39,137 nucleotides of DNA, from positions 1 through 39,137 of IMG/VR virus record IMGVR_UViG_3300018083_000067, one strand, 5' to 3'. The notes below the pieces were generated by a model. It saw only the letters and a list, made by a program, of their open reading frames with translations, had not been told where the DNA came from and did not search any database. A program made the position numbers and the translations under genes. This document shows positions 2,322 through 10,510 of this stretch, piece after piece; position 1 is the stretch's first letter; every line of letters starts with the position of its first letter. This stretch comes from a virus.

Positions 2322-2399
2322 GATATTATCCTTTAAAAAGGTGGGTTTCTATTTAACATACCGTCAAGGATATGCCAACACCTTACTCCCCACACAAAT

Positions 2400-4632: not shown

Positions 4633-4669
4633 CAACCTTCCTTTTTTGCTTTAATGTAAAGGAAGGTTG
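4633..4669 (-). repeat. Perfect 12-bp inverted repeat holding the portal ribosome site
   Basis: CAACCTTCCTTT and AAAGGAAGGTTG are exact complements separated by 13 bases. On the minus strand the second arm contains the AAGGAAGG ribosome site of the portal gene. No T-run follows, so it is not an intrinsic terminator. It may mask translation, stabilise the message, or be an operator, since the likely promoter overlaps it. Confidence 0.75.
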
Positions 4670-4720: not shown

Positions 4721-4776
4721 AGCAGAAATTGGGATTCGAACCCAAATCTTCAAGTTTTCAGCTTGCTATTTTCCAC
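4721..4776 (-). tRNA. tRNA-Phe(GAA)-like element lacking a D arm (degenerate tRNA or attachment-site remnant)
   Basis: The 3' half is textbook: anticodon arm GCAAG-CTGAAAA-CTTGA (anticodon GAA, four pairs plus one mismatch), a four-base variable loop, T arm TTGGG-TTCGAAT-CCCAA and a 3' acceptor strand TTTCTGC. The only good 5' acceptor, GTGGAAA (five Watson-Crick and two G-T pairs), lies three bases before the anticodon stem, leaving no room for a D arm. The discriminator base would be T, unusual for Phe, and no CCA is encoded. Either a truncated tRNA, a true D-armless tRNA, or the tRNA 3' half typical of phage attachment sites. Confidence 0.45.
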
Positions 4777-4837
4777 GACCTCAACTGCGTACGACAGCCA
4801 ACGTTTCTCGTGAACCATTTAAACTATTCCCGCGTAA

Positions 4838-5504: not shown

Positions 5505-5912
5505 TCAATTATCAAACCCTATAATCACTCTAATATTTCTTTCATCTTCTTTTGATAATGATCCACACCATGAACATAATCTGGGAATAATTTCCTCACA
5601 AAAAATCTTAAAATAACATTTATCCAAACCCACAAGTTCCCAAGGTGCTGCAAGGATTTCATTAAGATAAGCATGAGTGATAGAATGATCGGAGCAATCA
5701 TAAAAATGCTGGTCAACAGAAGAATCTTCAGGAACTCTACGATCTTCAAATTGTGGTTTAATTAAACTATTTCCATAATTTCGAACGTTAGCCAAGAACG
5801 CAAATAATAAATAATTCCTGTCATCTGGCAATAATCTTTCATCTATCTCAATCTTTTGCCACTTCCCTTCTTTATTTTTTTGCTCAAAGTATAGATGAAT
5901 GTCACACCCCAT
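5505..5912 (-). CDS. MGCDIH-family phage protein, 135 aa
   Basis: Opens with MGCDIHLYFEQKNKEGKW and has RNYLLFAFLANVRNYG, then a block around PEDSSVDQHFYDCSDHSITH. The MGCDIH-x-E opening followed by 'Y-LF--LA-VRN' is a pattern I know from uncharacterised phage proteins. Conserved Cys3, Asp4 and His6, plus later Asp/His residues, look like a possible metal site, but no activity is known to me. In the middle of the minus-strand accessory operon with near-zero spacing to both neighbours. Confidence 0.7.
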   Translation of the reverse strand: MGCDIHLYFEQKNKEGKWQKIEIDERLLPDDRNYLLFAFLANVRNYGNSLIKPQFEDRRVPEDSSVDQHFYDCSDHSITHAYLNEILAAPWELVGLDKCYFKIFCEEIIPRLCSWCGSLSKEDERNIRVIIGFDN

Positions 5913-10411: not shown

Positions 10412-10510
10412 TGAACGCGGCAGGAGTTGAACCTGCTCACCGCCCTACATATAAAAGGAGTCTTAATTCTTAAATTAATAGTGCTAAATGATTTCACCAC
10501 AAACGCGTTC
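10412..10510 (-). tRNA. tRNA-Leu, probable anticodon UAA
   Basis: Acceptor arms GAACGCG and CGCGTTC pair perfectly over seven bases; T arm GCAGG-TTCAACT-CCTGC is canonical; D arm has a GTG/CAC stem with a GTGAAATCATTTAG loop; the long variable arm (about 26 bases) marks a class II tRNA. The anticodon arm is unusual: TTAAT pairs with ATTAA across a six-base loop TTAAGA, from which TAA is the likely anticodon. Discriminator A, typical of Leu; no encoded CCA. It begins one base after the J-domain gene stop. Identity firm as class II, anticodon moderately sure. Confidence 0.8.

Follow-up and report, generated by a model that had tools for sequence, protein, structure and literature searches.

Phage-encoded tRNAs are tRNA-like genes lying among the other genes of a phage genome, and they have been discussed for anticodon-loop changes or for tRNA supply (PMC10264068, PMC11555353); PMC10264068 makes no mention of the D-loop, the D-arm or insertion. 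Irregular allo-tRNA-like RNAs have been described from soil metagenomes, some with five-stem junctions, extra loops or G3:U70, and the forms with possible five-stem junctions failed in translation in E. coli (PMC7609411). An enlarged D arm is also a property of tRNA-Sec, which combines a 6-pair D stem and a 4-nt loop with a long variable arm (PMC7609411). Archaeal tRNAs can hold introns in the D loop. Finally, engineered aptamer-tagged tRNAs carry a hairpin on the tRNA scaffold, but these are artificial, their hairpin is in the variable arm, and the fusions usually lost translation activity (PMC7590224).

The window analyzed here is a virus record of 39,137 bases, apparently from an uncultured, soil-borne phage. 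With moderate confidence, we read positions 4721-4833 of its minus strand as a putative tRNA-Phe(GAA)-type gene of 113 nt, against about 73 bases for an ordinary tRNA, with a D loop enlarged by a 41-nt hairpin. This reading draws on a pattern scan, shuffles, ARAGORN on the insert-deleted form and ensemble folding. The shape is unusual among bacterial or phage tRNAs and a 41-nt D-loop hairpin would be an extreme case; what appears to be new is the structure of the element, while its function is putative. Like the known phage tRNAs, it lies among other phage genes. The allo-tRNA-like RNAs of soil data seem to be the nearest published parallel (PMC7609411): soil origin and irregular form are shared. 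They can have an 8/4 acceptor branch, and here RNAfold prefers 8/4 although 7/5 can form as well. The phage element has a variable loop of only 4 nt in place of a long variable arm, has a D stem of at most 4 pairs in place of a long one, and carries its extra hairpin in the D loop. Similarly, it resembles tRNA-Sec in the enlarged D arm but lacks the 6-pair D stem, the 4-nt loop and the long variable arm. Archaeal D-loop introns and aptamer-tagged tRNAs resemble it in outline only. An archaeal-type intron was rejected on inspection of the insert fold, which contains no bulge-helix-bulge and is instead closed by an unbroken helix of 6-7 pairs, and no splicing gene was recognised among the window proteins scanned.

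In RNA letters, the 5' to 3' order is GCGGGAA UA GUUU AAAUGGU, 41 nt, A AAAU A and the anticodon arm. The 5' acceptor strand GCGGGAA (4833-4827) forms 7/7 pairs with UUUCUGC at 4728-4722, including the wobbles G3.U70 and G5.U68, with pair probabilities of 0.84-0.99. It is followed at 4826-4814 by U8 and A9, the 5' strand of the D stem (GTTT, 4824-4821) and the start of the D loop, AAATGGT, which supplies A14, A15, G18 and G19; this part was placed from the sequence, with shuffles and ARAGORN. The insert occupies 4813-4773 and folds as a hairpin, TCACGA..TCGTGG, with an inner stem TTGGCTGT/GCAGTTGA. Beyond it lie A21, the 3' strand of the D stem (AAAT, positions 22-25) and A26 (4772-4767), again from the sequence and from ARAGORN on the insert-deleted form. 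The D loop is thus of greater than ordinary bacterial length, with G18G19 present and 41 extra nt. ARAGORN also delimits the anticodon arm GCAAG-CTGAAAA-CTTGA (4766-4750), with the anticodon GAA at 4759-4757, four stem pairs plus a G27.A43 mismatch, and a 7-nt loop CTGAAAA containing U33, and the T arm TTGGG-TTCGAAT-CCCAA (4745-4729), with 5/5 stem pairs and a loop that fits the bacterial-type TTCRANY. The sequence ends with the 3' acceptor strand TTTCTGC (4728-4722) and the discriminator U73 (4721), where tRNA-Phe usually has A73; CCA is not encoded. The first-pass annotation had recognised the GAA anticodon arm, the T arm, the 3' acceptor strand and the T discriminator, and all of these hold on the minus strand at 4721-4766, as does the tRNA-Phe-like character that it proposed.

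Its neighbors are two genes of the same strand: one whose stop codon lies 4 nt before the element, and the portal gene, which follows after about 90 nt. Codon usage in 17 ORFs of the window is 27.3 per thousand for TTT and 11.7 for TTC, values that inform only in comparison with a host. Separately, a nine-pair hairpin CAACCTTCC..GGAAGGTTG at 4633-4669 (minus strand) sits directly ahead of the probable TTG start of the portal gene (4629-4627), and it would cover a Shine-Dalgarno-like GGAAGG.

ARAGORN and Rfam both call a tRNA (Phe) at 4721-4788 on the minus strand, with an Rfam score of 33.1 bits. On the present reading, the true 5' half lies upstream of this 5' end, which the standard tools set 45 nt too far in. 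Numbered by eye, the standard positions are held by U8, A9, A14, A15, G18, G19, A21, A26 and U48. Core residues stay in register across the insert: U8-A14-A21 and A15-U48, which are usual tRNA core contacts, and G18G19 with the T loop TTCGAAT. When the insert is deleted, ARAGORN returns a clean tRNA-Phe cloverleaf of 72 nt. Acceptor 7/7, U8, R9, A14, R15 and GG occurred together in 129 of 100,000 dinucleotide shuffles (0.13%) of the upstream 185 nt, and at a single site, the real one, in the whole window on both strands. Since this combination was formulated with the sequence already seen, nearly the same criteria were also run on related contigs (894 kb, both strands, 250-nt reach), where they returned canonical tRNA-Thr, -Asn and -Gly, odd tRNA-like elements, a doubtful one in L093, and this element. 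The D-arm sequence, TAGTTTAA-GGT-AAAA, recurs free of any insert in a canonical tRNA-Gly(UCC) from a related phage, and we therefore placed the insert between positions 20 and 21.

G+C content is 56% in the insert and 37.5% in the rest of the element. Of 5000 shuffles, 42 reached closure by 6 pairs, and folding as good as that of the real insert was seen in 7% of its shuffled versions. In the unconstrained ensemble of the 113-nt RNA, probabilities were 0.84-0.99 for the acceptor pairs, 0.6-1.0 for the insert hairpin, mostly near 0.8 for the T stem and near 0.5 for the anticodon stem; the 4-pair D stem is weak, near 0.01. The total folding energy is unexceptional (z = -1.09), so that the case for the 113-nt element rests on position-specific tRNA features and not on energy. 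An alternative with the D stem GTTT/AAAC and a second, pseudo-anticodon arm GGCTG-TCGTACG-CAGTT was rejected, being 6 to 11 kcal/mol worse than the models with the insert hairpin and having C33 and C37 in its loop. As for the source of the insert, no further copy was present in the window or in the related phage loci examined, and exact pieces occur elsewhere in one near-identical contig only.

Some 40 IMG/VR contigs encode a portal protein that in most cases shares 74-100% identity with that of the window, but identity to named phages such as Burkholderia phage JC1 is only about 23%, and genome contigs searched with the portal yielded no relative. One contig, L041, bridges the end and the start of the window with 219 nt between them, which indicates a circular or circularly permuted genome. 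A contig from a separate metagenome (L038) has the same 113 nt unchanged and is 99.92% identical over 5.2 kb; an assembly error of a single contig is hence an unlikely origin of the element. The nearest relative covering the site (L039, about 83% identical DNA) has the same two neighbor genes without the element. Presence in the former and absence from the latter point to a recent gain or loss, and in the data seen the element appears confined to one phage species. We found no independent homologue that bears an insert in the same place, and no insert-free version in viral contigs with a degenerate pattern. By blastn, the match to the closest named phages was limited to 37 nt of the 3' half and fell in tRNA-Arg genes.

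What the analysis shows for the element is its sequence and its pairing potential; its transcription, processing and charging are inferred. It would be transcribed in the mRNA of the flanking same-strand genes. Its location right behind a stop codon in a same-strand gene run suggests release from the mRNA by RNase P, which would cut the 5' end; the 3' end would be trimmed and the host would add CCA. The product, a stable RNA, would measure about 116 nt, its hairpin jutting from the elbow. Positions 20 and 21, which flank the insert, mark the outer corner of this elbow, a place where D-loop length differs among natural tRNAs. Processing and charging of the RNA would show that an elbow can accept a large natural insert, and an RNA kept out of decoding would speak for phage tRNA mimicry. 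The use of the RNA is the least certain part. The GAA loop is intact, in favor of a role in reading Phe codons or in replacing the host tRNA-Phe in infection, while U73, G27.A43 and the elbow hairpin argue for a tRNA-like RNA that decodes little and keeps the processing and stability features of a tRNA, a kind of RNA that relatives of this phage clearly possess. U73, G27.A43 and G3:U70 would be ill-suited to PheRS, and G3:U70 is the main AlaRS element (PMC7609411). Most likely, a phage tRNA-Phe was turned into a hairpin-bearing tRNA-like RNA. Between a tRNA-like RNA that the phage maintains and a dead gene, we slightly favor the former.

We then considered other tRNA-like RNAs in the window and in related phages. 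Among 89 related records, 23 gave a tRNA hit in Rfam (E up to 0.1), and the canonical tRNAs among them are Asn, Thr and Gly. Others bear hairpins or expanded loops in other arms. For example, L030 and L040 have nearly identical bodies with anticodon arms of 26 nt and loops of 12-14 nt. Similarly, L004 (6186-6274) and L065 (1501-1586) have His-like bodies in which G-1:C73 provides the signature of tRNA-His; their enlarged anticodon arms have a GTAAAG loop in common and a stem that differs between them. A further class is found in L057 (1501-1605), L059 (1501-1585, minus strand), L108 (3291-3395) and L142 (near 5560-5665), with an invariant body TAGCTCAGCAGTGAGAGCGC..TGATCC..GGGGAGAGGTCG..GGTGCAATTCC, a longer hairpin that replaces the anticodon arm, a D loop without GG and a T loop TGCAATT. 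Across these four phages, 7/7 acceptor pairs are changed on both sides while the body is nearly invariant, with a covariation score of 0.667, compared with 0.224 for shuffles and no more than 0.119 after sliding. This compensation is good evidence that the clade maintains tRNA-like RNAs which would be unable to decode. In this clade, tRNA-like RNAs diverge freely in the lower half while the acceptor and the T arm remain paired. In the class with the compensated acceptor, a stretch ahead of the hairpin resembles a kink-turn (a 3-nt bulge, then GA/GA). The window itself holds a second, Leu(UAA)-like element at 10412-10510 (minus strand; Rfam 18.4 bits, below the cut-off), with a perfect acceptor GAACGCG/CGCGTTC and a perfect T stem, a 6-nt anticodon loop, a D loop without GG and a long variable region.

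The main rival, possible although we consider it unlikely, is that the element is a decaying tRNA gene: slippage or recombination would have brought 41 bases into the D loop of a former phage tRNA, leaving neutral debris. G3.U70, G5.U68, G10.U25, G27.A43 and U73 would all weaken the element, and its restriction to one phage species, with a relative of 83% identical DNA lacking it, fits such a history. However, the core residues are intact on either side of the insert, the D loop is the only part broken among the arms, and the insert itself is folded with closed ends, as its rarely matched 6-pair closure attests.

The element could also be a maintained, non-decoding tRNA mimic, serving for example as a decoy or shield against tRNA-cutting defenses of the host or as mRNA punctuation cut by RNase P, and we judge this quite unlikely. 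It would agree with the non-decoding tRNA-like RNAs that the clade keeps between structural genes, one class of which has 7/7 acceptor pairs compensated, and with reports of phage tRNAs that act against anticodon nucleases (PMC10264068) and against retron effectors (PMC11555353), but the anticodon loop of the element is canonical and the defense target is only hypothetical. Improbable is a naturally occurring, active phage tRNA whose elbow hairpin binds a protein or RNA and in which the AlaRS-type pair G3:U70 and the GAA anticodon together would place alanine at Phe codons or make a dedicated tRNA mimic. If this were true, the element would be one of many hairpin-bearing tRNA-like RNAs in the clade that have so far gone unrecognised.

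The shorter readings of the locus were rejected for weaker pairing and broken invariants. That the compact 68-nt tRNA-Phe called by ARAGORN at 4721-4788 is the real gene seems very improbable: the call exceeds the Rfam gathering score, but it requires two U.U acceptor mismatches, A8 for U8, G9, the loss of A14 and a 2-pair D stem, and 174 of 200 shuffles fold at least equally well. Harder still to credit is the proposal made initially, a D-armless tRNA of 56 nt (4721-4776) in which GTGGAAA, next to the anticodon stem, serves as the acceptor partner. The pairing as such stands, with 7/7 pairs (two G.U) when the 56-mer is isolated, and a designed D-armless tRNA was functional in E. coli (PMC11551756). 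Yet the heptamer is also used on the 3' side of the insert hairpin, and ensemble folding favors this hairpin; given the longer transcript, the acceptor strand takes GCGGGAA, 57 bases further 5', as its partner. The isolated 56-mer does fold without a D arm, at -10.4 kcal/mol, but no better than shuffles (z = -0.69; 49 of 200 fold equally well). The claim of a missing D arm proved wrong, since a full D arm with its invariant residues lies in register upstream, split by 41 bases. The weakest proposal, an attachment-site core copied from the 3' half of a host tRNA-Phe, has only the general habit of phages to carry such halves in its favor and is largely refuted, because the exact 22-nt 3' end is found in 0 of 84,980 species genomes (a collection from which the real host may be absent) and, among viral contigs, in two near-identical relatives only, and because the 40 window proteins scanned against PHROGs include no integrase, as the first-pass annotation had noted; the element moreover has a 5' half, and use of the tRNA gene as an attachment site is unlikely.

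Some further observations concern the surroundings of the portal gene and related contigs. Upstream of position 2846 in L019, a terminase-like frame has an apparent intein-like end (..IVHNCSHAADS) that is absent from relatives. In the window, an intergenic slot 3' of the portal gene holds a 53-nt closed-stem RNA, GTGGGGAGTAAGG..AAATAGAAACCCAC, at 2341-2393 (minus strand), which has no Rfam match and has close copies in L045 and L088; the changes in L088 look compensating. Some 60 related phages have a slot about 190 bp 3' of the portal gene, mostly with differing closed-stem RNAs, and its contents include tRNA-like elements, several shared motifs of unfamiliar type or a plain hairpin. When twelve of these loci were compared with Rfam, only tRNA matches were returned. 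One motif, CCGTGGCYGYGCAAACGAGAG..CTCARGCCAC, recurs in the slot of L069, L074, L091, L102, L104 and L037. Overall, undescribed phage RNAs seem to cluster in the portal slot.
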